From: Phocaeicola plebeius DSM 17135
Lineage (GTDB): Bacteria > Bacteroidota > Bacteroidia > Bacteroidales > Bacteroidaceae
DNA length: 64,000 bases
Direction: 5' to 3'
Assembly (NCBI RefSeq): GCF_000187895.1
Contig: NZ_DS990122.1
Span: 124,001-188,000 of the forward strand
Part shown: in pieces, positions 8,341 to 49,441 of the stretch
Layout of the letters: every line of letters starts with the position of its first letter
Numbering within the stretch: the first letter of the stretch is position 1
Translations under genes and position numbers: made by a program
The notes under the pieces: model-generated
The model's input: only the letters and a program-made list of their open reading frames with translations
Told to the model about the DNA's origin: nothing
The model's database searches: none

Positions 8341-9099
8341 ATGAAAGCTCAATCATTCATTCGCAAAGGTTTTTTCATCCTGACAACTCTGTGTTTGTCT
8401 ATGGGGATTCAATCATGTCTGGACGATGACGATAACAACCTTTCTCTTTCACACTATTACGCCAATGCACTTGTCACTGTAAAACAGAGTGCAGACAATA
8501 CACCGTATCTGCAACTGGATGACAGCACAACCTTGCGTCCGGTAAATATGACAACTTCTCCCTTTGGCGAGAAGGAGGTAAGAGCACTGGCCAATATTGA
8601 ATTGGCTGACGCAGCTCCTCAGGAGTATGACAAAGCTGTATTCATCAACTGGATAGACAGTATACTGACCAAACCGATGGCTCCTAATTGGGGAGAAGAG
8701 GAAAATAATCATACGTATGGAAACGACCCAGTAGAAATACTGAATGACTGGGTAACCATTGCGGAAGATGGATACCTGACACTCCGGTTTGCCACTCGCT
8801 GGGGTAACGGACAATCACATTTCGTCAACCTGATCAGTACACAGAATCCGGACAATTCTTATGAGGTAGAATTCCGCCACAATGCCTTTGGTGATACAGA
8901 GGGTAAAATGGGAGATGCACTGGTTGCTTTCAAGCTGGATGAACTGCCCGATACGCAGGGAGAAACTGTCAAACTGAAACTGAAATGGAATTCTTTCAGC
9001 GGAGAAAAGTCGGCAGAATTCGATTACTGTACCAGGAAAGCCACGAACCCACAGGCTCAGGAAGTCACTGCCATCCGCTGCACACAGAAAGTGAAATAA
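8341..9099 (+). CDS. NigD-like lipoprotein
   Basis: 252 residues. A type II signal peptide ends at the lipobox MGIQSC (Cys26), followed by LDDDD, an acidic stretch like the Bacteroidetes surface lipoprotein export signal. The body is beta-rich and matches the NigD-like family (N-terminal domain about 40-120, C-terminal beta domain about 130-250), abundant in Bacteroides and named after a nigrescin-locus gene. Its biochemical function is unknown. It stands alone between the tRNA and a repeat array. The 115 bp upstream contains no full consensus promoter; TGTCTTTG at 8227-8234 is a near match. Confidence 0.8.
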   Translation: MKAQSFIRKGFFILTTLCLSMGIQSCLDDDDNNLSLSHYYANALVTVKQSADNTPYLQLDDSTTLRPVNMTTSPFGEKEVRALANIELADAAPQEYDKAVFINWIDSILTKPMAPNWGEEENNHTYGNDPVEILNDWVTIAEDGYLTLRFATRWGNGQSHFVNLISTQNPDNSYEVEFRHNAFGDTEGKMGDALVAFKLDELPDTQGETVKLKLKWNSFSGEKSAEFDYCTRKATNPQAQEVTAIRCTQKVK

Positions 9100-9120: not shown

Positions 9121-9222
9121 AAACGCTTAGGCATTCGAACTAAAATACCTAAGCGTTTTCATTGAAACGCCTAAGAGTTTTAAATCAAACGCTTAGGCGT
9201 TTTAGTTAAAATGTACTTGCGT
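9121..9222. repeat. 22-bp-period palindromic repeat array (array 1), four full units plus an interrupted fifth
   Basis: Sixteen-base near-palindromes of the form AAACG-CYTARG-CGTTT begin at 9121, 9143, 9165 and 9187, exactly 22 bp apart, with 6-bp spacers. The hexamer cores are CTTAGG (9126), CCTAAG (9148), CCTAAG (9170) and CTTAGG (9192). A degenerate fifth copy, AAATG-TACTTG-CGT, starts at 9209 and is cut by the IS3 element; it continues as TTTTAAATC after the IS at 10731. In RNA, neighbouring units can fold into two hairpins with 11-12 bp stems and 16-nt loops. The array lies between convergent nigD-like and DUF389 genes, where it may also act as a terminator. Confidence 0.8.
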
Positions 9223-9370
9223 TGAAGTGTACTGAAAATAGTTGTCAGTTTGAAGATTAATTCCTGACAAAAGTTGACAGGTTAAACATTATATTCCTAG
9301 AAAGGTTGTCAGTTCTGCAAAACTACAACAAAAAATCAATATCGATATATTTACTCCTTAAAAACTCATC

Positions 9371-9420
9371 GCTCGGGGAGCGCCATGCGGCAAGGGGCGG
9401 GAGTCCCCGCCCCGACGAGC
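9371..9420. other. GC-rich nested hairpin in the IS 3' region
   Basis: GGGGCGGG (9394-9401) pairs with CCCGCCCC (9406-9413) around a 4-nt loop, and GCTCG (9371-9375) pairs with CGAGC (9416-9420) outside it. It begins 8 bp after the orfB stop codon (minus strand) and could protect or terminate the transposase mRNA. It lacks a T run. Confidence 0.55.
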
Positions 9421-9427
9421 ACATCTT

Positions 9428-10297
9428 TCAGTTATACCGATATTCCATAAGAGGGTTTCCTCCTCTGCCTGAAAAGACTTCCATAGGAGTCTTCATACCC
9501 AGTGCCCTGTGTGGTCTGGCATTGTTGTACATCGCTACGGATTTACTTACGGCTTCCTCTGCCTGTCTGAAGTCCATATCACCTTCATTGAAGAGCCACC
9601 CGTTCTTCAGGGTGTTGTTCATCCTCTCGGCCAGGGCATTGTGAAGCGGGTCTCCCGTCTGGGTCATGCTGATTCTGATGCCTTGTGAAAGCAGCAGGTT
9701 CGTGTACTGCTTCGAGGCATACTGCACGCCACGGTCAGAGTGGTGTATCATGCCCTCCGTACTGATTCCGTAGGCACGGTAGGTCTCCAGAGCCATGTAC
9801 ATAGCTCTCAGCGGTCCCTCTGCATCCAGACTCCTGCTCAGGCAGTATCCGACTATGTATCTGCTGTAGGCGTCAGTCACCAGTGAAAGATAGGCAAAAC
9901 CTTCTCTGGTATAGATATAGGTGATGTCCGCCACCACAAGCCGGCCATTGCCCGCAGGCGTGTACTTGGGAGAAGTGTTTACAAGATCCCTGTAAAGACG
10001 GTAACCGTGTCTGGAGTCCGTGGTACGAGGACGGTACCTTGTCCGCCTGAGCATGAGCGAGTTGAAACGGAGCACATTGTAAAACCTGTCCCGTCCTATG
10101 GTGAACTTTTCCCTGAAGTATTCACGGCAGAGTGTGTAGAGTTCCCGACAGCCCGCTTTGGGAAGACATTCCTTCTGGCGGACGTACAGGCAGTACAATA
10201 CAATGCTGGCAGAGAGTATGTCAGCCTCGTTTGAGGCATAGTCATGCTTGTAGTATCCCTGTGCTGATATGCCAAGCAATCTGCAAAGCGGACGCAC
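9428..10297 (-). CDS. IS3-family transposase OrfB (DDE integrase domain)
   Basis: 289 residues from a GTG start. It has an N-terminal HTH_21-like helical segment, then an rve integrase core with VADITYI (first Asp), HSDRGVQY (second Asp) and NALAERMNNTLKNG (catalytic Glu). The DDE triad is intact. The reading frame stays open upstream to the slippery site at 10348-10354, so the active product is probably the OrfAB fusion made by -1 frameshifting, and the GTG may not be used. OrfB carries the strand-transfer chemistry of transposition. Confidence 0.92.
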   Translation of the reverse strand: MRPLCRLLGISAQGYYKHDYASNEADILSASIVLYCLYVRQKECLPKAGCRELYTLCREYFREKFTIGRDRFYNVLRFNSLMLRRTRYRPRTTDSRHGYRLYRDLVNTSPKYTPAGNGRLVVADITYIYTREGFAYLSLVTDAYSRYIVGYCLSRSLDAEGPLRAMYMALETYRAYGISTEGMIHHSDRGVQYASKQYTNLLLSQGIRISMTQTGDPLHNALAERMNNTLKNGWLFNEGDMDFRQAEEAVSKSVAMYNNARPHRALGMKTPMEVFSGRGGNPLMEYRYN

Positions 10298-10332
10298 GCG
10301 GTAACGGCGTCCGCCTTGAGACAGGCCTCGGA

Positions 10333-10689
10333 TTACTTGGCACCGGAGTTTTTTCTTACCGGAATGTTATAGGTCTTTTCCGCAAGGTCGATCATGTAGT
10401 CGTAGGCGTCACGGGCCATGTTGGACTGCTTCAACTCTACTTCCAAGGACTTGATTTTCCGCTCGAGCTCATGAATACGGTCATGAAGCTCCTGCTCGGT
10501 CTGACTTAGTTTCTTGCTCATAATGGGACTTGGTTTATCTTCAAGCCCAAAGATACGAAGCCAGCGGCTAATTGTGGTGCGTTTCAGACCTTTTTCTCGT
10601 TCAAATTCACTGTGGTTCTGAGAAGAACACATATATTCTTCCAGATAAGACAGGCATTCTGCCTTTGAAAACTTTCGATTTTTACGCAT
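10333..10689 (-). CDS. IS3-family transposase OrfA (helix-turn-helix)
   Basis: 118 residues. A helix-turn-helix (KRTTISRWLRIFG, about 35-47) is followed by a leucine-zipper-like coiled coil (about 60-90, LHDRIHELERKIKSLEVEL), the usual OrfA layout for terminal-repeat binding and multimerisation. Its last codons contain the frameshift heptamer A AAA AAC. The stop codon follows five codons later. A start 40 bp inside the right terminal repeat is consistent with IS3 promoters that lie in the end of the element. Confidence 0.9.
   Translation of the reverse strand: MRKNRKFSKAECLSYLEEYMCSSQNHSEFEREKGLKRTTISRWLRIFGLEDKPSPIMSKKLSQTEQELHDRIHELERKIKSLEVELKQSNMARDAYDYMIDLAEKTYNIPVRKNSGAK
10348..10354 (-). 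other. Predicted -1 programmed ribosomal frameshift site of the IS
   Basis: On the minus strand the heptamer A AAA AAC lies in the correct phase (orfA codons AAA AAC). A -1 slip enters the orfB frame, which is open without a stop to the orfB start. About 35 nt downstream GCGGACGC pairs with GCGTCCGC in a perfect 8-bp stem that could stimulate slippage. Confidence 0.75.
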
Positions 10690-10737
10690 GTTACTAAATA
10701 AATTGTGTCAACTTATTTAGTACACTACAGTTTTAAA

Positions 10738-12096
10738 TCACTCCACAATCAGCTGTAAATGAGCATCTCCTGTCTTTGCTTTCAGCCATTTCACGATTTT
10801 ATCGCGACTCTTCGAATCAGGCACCCGCTGACAATCAATAATGGCGTATGTCAAGGTGTCTATCCGGGAACTGTCAACTGACAGGCGAAGACTCTTTGAA
10901 ACAGAAAGAGTTTTAATTTCGGGGAACAAGACTTTTAACTCCTGCCCTAACTGCTTACCCATCCAGTCTGAACCGGAAAAGTCAGCCAATTGCTTATGCA
11001 GGGTATTGATTTCCTCATCCTGCTCCTTCAAGCGTTTTTCGCTGTTCCGATAGAAATCTTCCATCACCATCGACTTAATGTTGCTGATGTCTACCGCACT
11101 GCCGTCACCCATTCCTTGAAATACTACCAAATTGGTTTTTGCCAGATTATAATCCGCCAAACGATGCTGGGCAGCCGCAATCTGATCTTTTGAGACTTCC
11201 TTTCCGACAAACACAACCTTTATTTCACGCTTGTCATAGGAAATTTCCCGACTTAAAATCTGAGAGTCAGGGAACTGCAGTTCTTCTGCAATGAAATGAT
11301 TGGCTGCAGACTGGTAGAAGGTTTCCCGCACAATATTATAAGTAAGGTAAACAGCCGGACACATCGTACCGATGGTTATCCAGATGATATAGCGTTTTAC
11401 CAACTTTTCACGAGCTTTATCTACAAACTGCTTGCGCTGGAAGTGCATCACCCGCACCCCAATGTAAGTGGCCAGACTGATAAAAACGGAGTTAATGAAA
11501 TACAAATAGAAGGCACCTAAAAAATACAGCAGATTCCCCGTGGCAATACCGAAACCAGCCGTACACAACGGCGGCATCAAGGCTGTAGCAATGGCCACAC
11601 CCGGTATTACATTTCCCTTTTCCTTCGTTGCCAATGCCACAATGCCAGCCAGACCACCCACTAAGGCTATGAACACATCGTAAATGGTAGGCGAGGTACG
11701 TGCCAACAATTCCGACTGAACTTCATCCAGCGGAGTAAAAGAAAAATAAATCGTGGCAGTCGTCACACTGAACAGCGTAGCTACCAGGTAACTTTTCAGT
11801 GAACGCTTCATCAGCTCGAAATCATTCAGTCCGATAGAAAGTCCCACTCCCATGATAGGTCCCATCAAAGGAGAAATCAACATGGCACCGATGATTACCG
11901 CCGTAGAATTGACATTCAGTCCCAGTGAAGCAATAAAGGTAGCAAAAATCAAGACCCAAAGATTGGTCCCTTTAAACTCTACCCCACTGCGGATGGCATC
12001 TACCGTCAGCTGTTCATCTTCCTTGCTCCGGTTCAAGTCCAGATACTCATTGAAGAATTTACGAAGGAGGAATTTCCTCTTGTTCCCTAGTTCCAT
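10738..12096 (-). CDS. DUF389 / TIGR00341 family membrane protein
   Basis: 452 residues. An N-terminal cytoplasmic stretch precedes a membrane domain (about 45-245) with GAMLISPLMGPIMG and ATALMPPLCTAGFG, the two signature repeats of DUF389. A soluble C-terminal region (about 260-452) follows. The family has no firmly assigned biochemical role. The gene is 53 bp after the flippase and in the same direction, so ruvB-flippase-DUF389 may be one transcript. The IS3 element lies 8 bp beyond its stop codon and has separated it from its original downstream flank, the 22-bp repeat array. Confidence 0.85.
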   Translation of the reverse strand: MELGNKRKFLLRKFFNEYLDLNRSKEDEQLTVDAIRSGVEFKGTNLWVLIFATFIASLGLNVNSTAVIIGAMLISPLMGPIMGVGLSIGLNDFELMKRSLKSYLVATLFSVTTATIYFSFTPLDEVQSELLARTSPTIYDVFIALVGGLAGIVALATKEKGNVIPGVAIATALMPPLCTAGFGIATGNLLYFLGAFYLYFINSVFISLATYIGVRVMHFQRKQFVDKAREKLVKRYIIWITIGTMCPAVYLTYNIVRETFYQSAANHFIAEELQFPDSQILSREISYDKREIKVVFVGKEVSKDQIAAAQHRLADYNLAKTNLVVFQGMGDGSAVDISNIKSMVMEDFYRNSEKRLKEQDEEINTLHKQLADFSGSDWMGKQLGQELKVLFPEIKTLSVSKSLRLSVDSSRIDTLTYAIIDCQRVPDSKSRDKIVKWLKAKTGDAHLQLIVE

Positions 12097-46904: not shown

Positions 46905-46950
46905 AAAGCGTGCCGGCAGGCGCTTTTCAGACAGCCTGCCGGCACGCTTT
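46905..46950 (+). terminator. Strong hairpin terminator of mtnN-luxS
   Basis: A perfect 17-bp stem AAAGCGTGCCGGCAGGC / GCCTGCCGGCACGCTTT with a 12-nt loop. The 3' side ends in CTTTC before the AGTACT array begins. Confidence 0.8.
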
Positions 46951-47030
46951 CAGTACTTCTTAGGCAGTACCGTAGTACTTCCCTAGCAGTACTCCAGTAC
47001 TTTCAAGGAAGTACCGCAGTACTGCTTAAG
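46951..47030. repeat. 22-bp-period AGTACT repeat array (array 2)
   Basis: Seven AGTAC(T/C) copies lie at 46952, 46966, 46974, 46988, 46996, 47010 and 47018, i.e. alternating 14- and 8-bp steps that give an exact 22-bp period. Hexamer cores CTTAGG (46959), CCCTAG (46981), TCAAGG (47003) and CTTAAG (47025) alternate with 16-bp near-palindromes of the type CAGTACnnnnGTACTT. The whole also folds as one long imperfect hairpin (about 46959-47030). It lies between convergent luxS and GH2 genes, 6 bp from the GH2 stop. It has the same scaffold as the array at 9121. Confidence 0.82.
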
Positions 47031-47035
47031 GAGGA

Positions 47036-49441
47036 TTACTCAGCCTTCAATACCACTTCCGTTCCTTTCAAAAGAGGAGAAGTCAGTTTCACACGAATCT
47101 CACCTTTCTCACCTGTAGTCTGGATATAAGCCAGCAAACGTCCGTGAAAAGCACGGTGGTGATTATCTGTATAATCACTCATATCTCCGTTATTTGAACC
47201 TTCCAGTCCCAACAAGCGTGCCGGACCTTCAATCTGACAAGTTACGTCGTTATCGCCTAATTTTACGATAGTACCTTGTTCATCCACCACTTCGATTGTC
47301 ACATGTGCAGTAGCCTTATCCGGCGACAAGACTTCCTTATCCACAGTAGCCCGCAAGGCGTATGGACGTCCTGAGGTCTTGATTGCATAAGATGAAAGCA
47401 CCTTTCCAGTTGCATCACAACCTTCTGCACGCAATTCTCCATCCTGATAAGGAATATCCCAATAAATGATACCACTCTTATCATCGTAAGGCTTCATCTG
47501 ACCCACTTCTTTTCCGTTCAGCAACAAACGAGCCTGCGGTGCATTGGTATAACAAACCACCCGAATCAACTGACCCGGTTCGTAGTTCCACAAATCCCAT
47601 GCATCCATTGATACCCAGTCGTGCTTAGGATACGTACCAACATAAGTCACAGGTTTTTCACTCCAAAGCGAAGCACGGAAGTATCCACGGGGTTTAGGGA
47701 AGCTGCCAAAGTCCAGCAAACCAGTATACAAACCTCTGGAAGGCCATCTGCCTGATTCACCCAAATAGTCTGTACCCGTCCAGAGGAACTGTCCGAAAAT
47801 AAACTCCTTGTCGCGTACTGCATGCCAAGCCTCAATTCCCACACCGGTTTCACTACCGTAAATCACACGGTCAGGATAAGTAGCATGATCTTCGTCATAA
47901 CGGTTTTCCGTATAATTATATCCTACTACATCTACTGCTTCAGGATACTCTGTCTGATTCGACATCACCACTCCGGCCAATGCACCGGTAACAGGACGTG
48001 AAGTGTCCACCGCACGAACACAGGCAGCCAGACGCTTCGCAATCTTACCGATACGCATGGCATCCGGGGCATCAGGCTTGTATCCACCGAACATAGGCTG
48101 ATTAATGGTTGTGCCATCCAAAATAGGGTGAGAATAAGGATCGTTCGGATAGTCTACCTCATTACCGATGCTCCACAAGAATATACAAGGGTGATTCCGG
48201 TCACGACGCACCATATCCGTCACATCGCGTTCAATCCATTCCTCAAAGAAATCAAATGTTCCGTCATAGCTTGGTTCACCGACATTCCATCCCTTTATCC
48301 ATTTCCGTTTCGGGAATTCCCATTCATCCGAAGCTTCATCCATCACCAGGAAGCCCATTCGGTCACATAAATCATACAATACCGGTGCCTGCGGATTATG
48401 GCTCATACGGATGGCATTCACACCAATCTCTTTCAGGTTTCTCAGACGACGCTCCCATACTTCAGGAGGAACTACCGCACCCAGCACACCTGCATCATGA
48501 TGCAGACATACTCCTTTCACCTTCATCCACTTTCCGTTCAAGGCAAATCCCTTGTTGGCATCAAACTTCAATGTACGGAGACCTACATTCGTCGAACTGC
48601 CATCTATCCGTTTCCCGTCACAAAGCAACTCTGTCTTCAGCGTGTACAGATAAGGTGCATCCAGATTCCAGCGGCGAGGCTTCTTCACCTTCAGTGATAT
48701 TGTTTCTTTCGCAATACCCTCAGCTTTATCTGCCACTTTCTTACGGCCTTGTGCTACCAACGCACCTTCTGCATCATAAAGTGCCGCAGAAACCTCCAAT
48801 GCACCAGCAGCCTTCACATGTTTTTCGACTTCCATATCAACTGCCACTACCGCCTGCTTATCGGTCAGCGAAGTAGCGTGCCAGCCTATTCCCCATTGAG
48901 CAAAATGAATATCCGGGGCGGAAATCATCCACACATCCCGGTAAATTCCGGAACCGGTGTACCAGCGTGAATCGGCATAACGGCTATGGTCAATACGGAC
49001 TGCCAGCACGTTATTTCCTTCCTTCAGGTAGGGAGTCATGTCATACATAAAAGATATGTATCCGTTCGGACGTTTACCGAGCAAGTGACCGTTCAAATAA
49101 ACCTCGCTGCGGTTATATGCTCCCTCAAAATAGATGTAGTGGCGCGCAGCCTTATCGGTAACCTGAAAATGTTTCCGATACCAGCCTATCCCCCCCGGCA
49201 AATAACCGGTACAGCTTGCCAGGGAAGGAGAAAGCTGTCCTTCTACCGACCAGTCGTGCGGCAAATCAAGTTTTCGCCACTTACTATCGTCATACGATAC
49301 GGAAGTGCTCAGACTATCGTCCGACAAACTGAACAACCAATTCTCATTAAATTTTTTGGCTTCGCCAAAAGATACTTGGGCTTGCACTACAGTACATACC
49401 AACAGCCCCAAAAGAATAATAAAAAATGCCTTGTTCTTCAT
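47036..49441 (-). CDS. Glycoside hydrolase family 2 (beta-galactosidase-like, DUF4982-containing)
   Basis: 801 residues with a signal peptide ending VVQAQ (22). The sugar-binding jelly-roll, immunoglobulin-like domain and TIM barrel have acid/base Glu428 (WSIGNEVD) and nucleophile Glu531 (YGSETGVG). A C-terminal DUF4982 and Ig-like segment follows. It is an exo-acting periplasmic enzyme, probably a beta-galactosidase, though GH2 also includes beta-glucuronidases and mannosidases. It is the last gene of PUL B, 9 bp after the GH30 gene. Confidence 0.88.
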   Translation of the reverse strand: MKNKAFFIILLGLLVCTVVQAQVSFGEAKKFNENWLFSLSDDSLSTSVSYDDSKWRKLDLPHDWSVEGQLSPSLASCTGYLPGGIGWYRKHFQVTDKAARHYIYFEGAYNRSEVYLNGHLLGKRPNGYISFMYDMTPYLKEGNNVLAVRIDHSRYADSRWYTGSGIYRDVWMISAPDIHFAQWGIGWHATSLTDKQAVVAVDMEVEKHVKAAGALEVSAALYDAEGALVAQGRKKVADKAEGIAKETISLKVKKPRRWNLDAPYLYTLKTELLCDGKRIDGSSTNVGLRTLKFDANKGFALNGKWMKVKGVCLHHDAGVLGAVVPPEVWERRLRNLKEIGVNAIRMSHNPQAPVLYDLCDRMGFLVMDEASDEWEFPKRKWIKGWNVGEPSYDGTFDFFEEWIERDVTDMVRRDRNHPCIFLWSIGNEVDYPNDPYSHPILDGTTINQPMFGGYKPDAPDAMRIGKIAKRLAACVRAVDTSRPVTGALAGVVMSNQTEYPEAVDVVGYNYTENRYDEDHATYPDRVIYGSETGVGIEAWHAVRDKEFIFGQFLWTGTDYLGESGRWPSRGLYTGLLDFGSFPKPRGYFRASLWSEKPVTYVGTYPKHDWVSMDAWDLWNYEPGQLIRVVCYTNAPQARLLLNGKEVGQMKPYDDKSGIIYWDIPYQDGELRAEGCDATGKVLSSYAIKTSGRPYALRATVDKEVLSPDKATAHVTIEVVDEQGTIVKLGDNDVTCQIEGPARLLGLEGSNNGDMSDYTDNHHRAFHGRLLAYIQTTGEKGEIRVKLTSPLLKGTEVVLKAE

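Follow-up and report, generated by a model that had tools for sequence, protein, structure and literature searches.

Imperfect palindromes arrayed at a strict 22-bp pitch near gene ends in Phocaeicola plebeius and its relatives

Introduction

Between a NigD-like gene and a convergent DUF389 gene of Phocaeicola plebeius DSM 17135 lies a short row of palindromes repeated at a single spacing, which raises the question of whether such a row acts in the RNA, as a terminator, or in the DNA, as a set of protein-binding sites. The locus is part of the 64,000-nt stretch analysed here (the window), for which an initial annotation had proposed four elements with a period of exactly 22 bp, dyads all on one face of the DNA, sites that change orientation and two hairpins with 16-nt loops in RNA from either strand. 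This interpretation was partly supported. Arrays of this kind, if they bind a family of proteins, would give abundant gut bacteria a system for organising the chromosome or bounding transcription, and from a single pitch over unrelated sequences follows a sharp biochemical prediction. An insertion sequence (IS) also lands at the arrays, which therefore influence where these genomes change.

Results

The array in the window

We confirm that the 22-bp-periodic palindrome array at 9121 is real. Its units are 16-bp imperfect palindromes starting at 9121, 9143, 9165, 9187 and 9209, with the first located 21 nt after the stop codon of the NigD-like gene (8341-9099, plus strand). Units 1 to 4, namely AAACGCTTAGGCATTC (9121-9136), AAATACCTAAGCGTTT (9143-9158), AAACGCCTAAGAGTTT (9165-9180) and AAACGCTTAGGCGTTT (9187-9202), have 2, 2, 1 and 0 mismatches to AAACGCYTARGCGTTT and carry the cores CTTAGG, CCTAAG, CCTAAG and CTTAGG, exactly as first described. 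The strict period holds as well, with four motif matches in 0 of 100 shuffles of the window sequence. A fifth unit, AAATGTACTTGCGTTG (9209-9224), is degenerate but in phase, and the array thus has five units rather than the four proposed.

The right arm of unit 5 is cut from 9223 by an IS (9223-10733, minus strand, right end uncertain by ~4 bp), which now separates the array from the convergent DUF389 gene (10738-12096, minus strand). The IS has ORFs at 9428-10297 (rve integrase domain) and 10333-10689, a layout from which we take it to belong to the IS3 family. A 32-bp repeat at its left end (2.5 copies, 9232-9312) perhaps provides transposase sites. An Rfam scan of the window at the gathering score returned tRNA only, and the array was not near any cut-off.

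The proposed geometry required revision. Placement of all dyads on one DNA face is exact only at 11 bp per turn, 22 bp being 2.1 turns at 10.5 bp per turn. In the predicted minus-strand fold, units 1 and 2 form a hairpin with a loop of 6 nt, not 16, because adjacent units are only 6 nt apart, and the plus strand folds as one nested hairpin instead of two.

Related arrays recur across the genome

We refer to arrays of this sequence as type A. The pattern AACGC-N4-GCGTT, required twice at 22 bp with at most 3 mismatches, was found at 189 places genome-wide, and its reversed control at 0. With an array defined as two units with at most 2 mismatches, and unit counts admitting 3 mismatches (5 inside an array), 45 type A arrays were detected in 2.06 Mb sampled of the 4.42-Mb genome, with five units in 35, six in 8 and four in 2. 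The mainly contiguous part of the sample (1.78 Mb; 1.784 Mb including one 20-kb stretch, L181, chosen for a match) held 32, from which we estimate ~80 per genome; the further 280 kb were chosen near known matches. Thirty of these 32 arrays sit between called ORFs, genes being defined by a simple ORF call of at least 90 or 100 aa. Detector hits on N runs (G164, L040) and a 39-bp IS match on contig C15 were dropped. Common function was absent among 20 proteins scanned from genes beside arrays.

The phasing of the units is strict. At no more than 1 mismatch, unit lags were 22 (85 cases), 44 (64), 66 (40) and 88 (18), with 21 seen once and 23 never; at no more than 2 mismatches, a lag of 22 was found in 120 cases, 21 in 5 and 23 in 0. 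The periodicity first noted in the window extends to two 400-kb stretches of the genome, which contained 30 and 36 lag-22 pairs, whereas none arose when the first stretch was simulated three times with a Markov model. Isolated units numbered 1, 84 and 903 at 0, 1 and 2 mismatches, compared to 2-5, 49-73 and 900-969 in three simulations. Since isolated units are near the chance level, the type A unit occurs in phased rows and hardly singly. Spacers vary within arrays at constant period, and indels are almost absent in this genome. The number of deviations in a unit is under-dispersed (variance 0.96 compared to 1.17, p 0.025), and no conserved flanks were detected, information content being near zero outside the five aligned units. 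The orientation change is visible in the window cores but is not a general design rule, as adjacent-unit complementarity over the 45 arrays averages 11.28 of 16 positions, compared to 11.24 after shuffling (p 0.36).

Arrays lie at gene ends and are targeted by an insertion sequence

Of 40 oriented type A arrays, 28 start no more than 61 nt from a stop codon. Among the gaps with type A arrays, convergent ones are enriched (12/30 vs 70/447 gaps, p 0.0019) and divergent ones depleted (3/30 vs 131/447, p 0.021). For a second class with the same pitch (type B, described below), 7 of 10 gaps are convergent (p 0.0002) and 3 of 10 are tandem. Most arrays of both types follow stop codons, in convergent or tandem gaps.

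The window IS has 11 matches in the genome, seven of them nearly full-length copies, two truncated at contig ends, one a 61-bp end and one the 39-bp piece. All except the 39-bp piece were inspected, and all 10 sit at type A units, while type A arrays and their 35-bp flanks together account for 0.4% of the sampled DNA. Five of the sites fall within a terminal unit (first or last), and two border unit 5 on its outer side, with a further, sixth unit beyond (weak in one case). Another is 31 bp outside, and the remaining two are contig ends; none of the 8 placeable sites is in a middle unit. IS elements targeting REPs, as described in PMC1525189, provide a parallel.

Unrelated sequences share the 22-bp pitch

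The type B motif, GTACTKC-N4-GMAGTAC with 4-nt spacers, is unrelated to type A; 10 arrays were sampled, all with four units. The type B array of the window (46953-47036) has units at 46953, 46975, 46997 and 47019, the fourth being half degenerate. It is flanked by convergent luxS and GH2 glycoside hydrolase genes and has a syntenic copy in the sister species G164. A perfect 17-bp inverted repeat (46905-46950) precedes it, which was called as a minus-strand terminator in one scan and not in a second, which allows loops of 3-8.

Two smaller classes were found in this genome (G000). Type C (TTTCC...GGAAA, ~22 bp) comprises five arrays (C2:214648, C6:277199, C14:1457, C14:295864 and C3:249779), all five upstream of a plus-strand gene, unlike types A and B. 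In most type C arrays a T-run precedes and an A-run follows, the reverse of terminator polarity. Type D (GACACG..CGTGTC) comprises three arrays (C6:266545, C3:313731 and C16:385601); the one on C16 is near an HU-HIG gene, 47 bp away on its 5´ side.

In this genome, 22 bp is the sole enriched period, and it spans unrelated sequences. Outside type A arrays, a lag-identity scan of the contiguous sample gave 14 peaks for a period of 22, compared to no more than 1 for any other period from 13 to 44. A stricter motif-free scan with symmetry returned 24 hits for 22, type A making up 13 of them, compared to 0, 0, 0 and 1 for 20, 21, 23 and 24. Applied to 75 loci related to the nigD locus (580 kb), the stricter scan picked out the 22-bp period 8 times and other periods between 16 and 30 1 to 3 times. 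An N run and the L029 type A array account for two of these 8 hits, and two more (L040 and L063) look like plain inverted repeats. The remaining four are 22-bp arrays of unrelated sequence in Bacteroides oleiciplenus (L034, 3595-3757), an uncultured Bacteroides (L035, 3690-3850), B. stercorirosoris (L039, 3718-3840) and Parabacteroides sp. 52 (L075, 1834-1912).

A-tract curvature was rejected as a common cause, as type B is without A-tracts by inspection. We also considered guide arrays of the TIGR type, since 5-mers alternate with 6-nt variable stretches, and rejected them because the cores are drawn from a small vocabulary.

RNA structure accounts for the arrays only in part

The arrays might be bidirectional intrinsic terminators, in which units pair in the RNA, a U-tract at each end releases RNA polymerase and extra units give robustness both ways. 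The proximity to stop codons is consistent with this, as are T-runs that are longer after the last type A unit than after inner units (5.1 vs 3.2; 4.4 at the other end) and the terminator-like structures that overlap 35 of 45 type A arrays. In B. mediterraneensis (L030), moreover, the orthologous nigD site has two units that form a hairpin followed by a T-run (T8), in effect a two-unit terminator. Type A arrays also have a folding advantage over unit-shuffled ones, at -39.0 vs -36.6 kcal/mol on one strand and -37.1 vs -35.3 kcal/mol on the other (a single shuffle in 60 did equally well on each), and near-perfect adjacent unit pairs are about twice as frequent as in shuffles (16 vs 8.3, p 0.0055).

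The units themselves, however, do not behave like hairpins in RNA. The arms of type A units are less complementary than shuffled arms (4.73 vs 4.80 for 6-bp arms, p 0.026), self-complementary cores are missing (0 of 231 compared to ~35 expected), and mirrored arm positions are without compensatory changes. Restriction-site avoidance is judged an unlikely reason for the missing palindromic cores because many different sites would need avoiding. On the transcribed strand (39 arrays), G-U is not favoured over A-C in non-convergent arrays, given counts of 105 vs 103; the counts are 88 vs 69 in convergent arrays. Nor would a terminator need an exact 22-bp pitch or five units. Strict phasing is the essential feature and, as initially proposed, is not accounted for by a plain terminator.

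Type B arrays have no folding advantage over shuffles, and terminator-like structures are found in the 150-bp flanks of 8 of 10, overlap 3 of 10 and are absent for 1. Two of the three neighbouring pairs (2-3 and 3-4) are less complementary than shuffled, while units 1 and 3 are somewhat more so (14.47 vs 13.85, p 0.028). Folds of both window arrays had suggested that a whole array is one hairpin, an idea we rejected as mirror pairing is not above shuffles (p 0.78 for type A and p 0.78 for type B, 17 arrays). A chain of RNA hairpins was likewise rejected as the common principle, given the lack of arm covariation and of a type B folding gain, and kept as a secondary role of type A. Because type B is without a folding advantage and its terminator-like structures are mostly outside the array, the feature common to types A and B is the pitch at the DNA level. 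Collectively, RNA structure explains the arrays only in part. Termination is unlikely to be what the arrays as a whole are for, though type A arrays do end in U-tracts and probably also act in transcription termination.

Distribution among relatives and the origin of the arrays

Of the 61 genomes of the genus, 26 have the general type A pattern at least 10 times (up to 268) and the remaining 35 have it 0 to 6 times, with the control pattern at no more than 3 in every one of the 61. Cores vary by species (TCCGTT in G112, CCGAAA in G155, ACAGGT and TGCCCG in G152). In 18 other genomes, the unit number of the best array ranges from 2 to 7, which makes five units a trait of this genome and not of the genus; G164 has four clear type A arrays with 4, 4, 5 and 5 units. 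When 298 family genomes were searched at no more than 2 mismatches, only three members of genus g6 (74, 62 and 10) reached at least 10 outside the genus. Type B matches were found in 9 of 61 genomes and reached at least 18 only in G196, G000, G164 and G185 (63, 40, 22 and 18), all of them type A-rich. In the gap first singled out in the window, the period is retained in the nearest relative found (L029, NigD 95% identical), with five units and different cores; the next relative, B. mediterraneensis, has only the two units, and B. ilei (L031) has none but an unrelated hairpin.

These distributions bear on a second explanation, that the arrays are non-autonomous mobile repeats, similar to REPs or MITEs, copied whole by some enzyme and without host function. 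The arrays are extragenic and clade-specific, and an IS homes on them as on REPs. Two type A arrays in this genome match at 86 of 104 bases, unit by unit and mainly within units (the shuffled maximum averages 80, p 0.025; top-ten mean 81.1 vs 77.3), and whole-array copying may therefore sometimes occur. Against mobility, flanks are not conserved, and period and number are held despite differing spacers. Two type B arrays are syntenic between this genome and G164, with 80/84 and 55/62 bases identical and a distance between the two of 28,011 and 28,115 bp in the two genomes; 77 of 84 bases agree in a third type B pair. For type A, a 400-kb comparison with B. mediterraneensis, where 5 detector hits include 4 clear arrays, yielded no orthologous pair. 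The Y1 transposase family (PF01797), which includes RAYT, is present in 6 of 61 genomes of the genus and in one (G155) of the 26 array-rich genomes; G000, G112, G157, G164, G185, G196 and G200 are without it. RAYT-driven REPs were rejected on this result. We consider mobile repeats a rather improbable explanation. A search of plasmid sequences gave no match, and a single viral contig (L259 from IMG/VR, 11536-11573) exactly matched the three-part type A pattern.

Functionless tandem duplication of a 22-bp repeat by slippage, of which several units identical including the spacer in one G112 array (L204, C1:367809-367912) are a sign of a recent case, is barely credible for the family, since spacers differ within arrays while the period holds with almost no indels in this genome, and the same period recurs in unrelated sequences.

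Discussion

Phased binding sites as the preferred reading

Our preferred reading, which we hold tentatively and as somewhat short of probable, is that each array is a phased row of binding sites for a putative sequence-specific, oligomerising DNA-binding protein. One dimer would occupy each 22-bp unit, with four or five dimers stacked along the DNA. The constant pitch, the few indels and single sites not above chance are properties of phased protein-binding arrays. Cooperative binding of a protein would fit the strict pitch, the near-constant unit number seen here, the imperfect symmetry of the units, their under-dispersed deviations and the fact that they hardly occur singly. Also in favour are the uncompensated mirrored arm positions, the missing palindromic cores, the preservation of type B arrays in both sequence and place in a sister species, and the enrichment in convergent gaps. 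One pitch with different sequences in types A and B, and probably C and D, fits a family of related binders; proteins of one geometry might read the different sequences. The likeliest role would be at the boundary of transcription units (chromosome architecture, supercoil handling or transcription blocking) because most type A and B arrays follow stop codons in convergent or tandem gaps.

Several results count against this preferred reading. Unit number varies across the genus, from 2 to 7 in best arrays, type A arrays do fold better as RNA than unit-shuffled ones, type C is upstream of genes, and a lag of 21 was seen in 5 cases beside the 120 at 22. The type A motif varies with the species and is missing in about half of the genus, which is unusual for a core chromosome function. 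No candidate binding protein was found in a search covering one family.

A broader proposal, which we regard as possible but doubtful, is that Bacteroidales have a general chromosomal address made of imperfect-palindrome rows with an invariant 22-bp pitch and several unrelated sequences per genome, each of which would be read by its own member of one stack-forming protein family that marks gene ends and organises the chromosome.

Comparison with known systems

We recognised no description of such arrays in the literature searched, in which subscription papers were thinly covered and outside which preprints lay. Operator and iteron arrays have several phased sites per protein at a pitch of about two turns. 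Unlike these, type A arrays number ~80 per genome by our estimate, mostly at 3´ ends and beside genes of unrelated function.

The arrays share with intrinsic, including bidirectional, terminators a location after stop codons, U-tracts at both ends and stable predicted type A hairpins. They differ in being exactly phased, with a fixed unit number and no arm covariation, and type B terminator-like structures are mostly outside the array.

BrickBuilt elements of Porphyromonas gingivalis are likewise intergenic repeats in a Bacteroidales species, characterised in PMC4596501 as MITEs with leader, tail and terminal inverted repeats. Unlike BrickBuilt elements as characterised there, type A arrays were seen with no leader, tail or terminal inverted repeats.

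The arrays can also be compared with REP and BIME elements, which PMC1525189 and PMC3733652 present as clustered extragenic imperfect palindromes, often at gene ends, and as targets of insertion sequences, including those of the IS3 family. The arrays resemble BIMEs in place and in IS targeting. Unlike REPs and BIMEs, they have a strict 22-bp pitch, four or five units in this genome and several unrelated sequences, with single units not above chance in a genome without a RAYT gene. A GTAG or CGTC tag at one end is given as a REP feature in PMC3733652, and no constant tag of either kind was found in the aligned units of 39 arrays. Because both the RAYT gene and the tag are absent, we do not file the arrays as REPs. 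We place them with extragenic palindrome arrays, where they possibly represent a categorically new kind.
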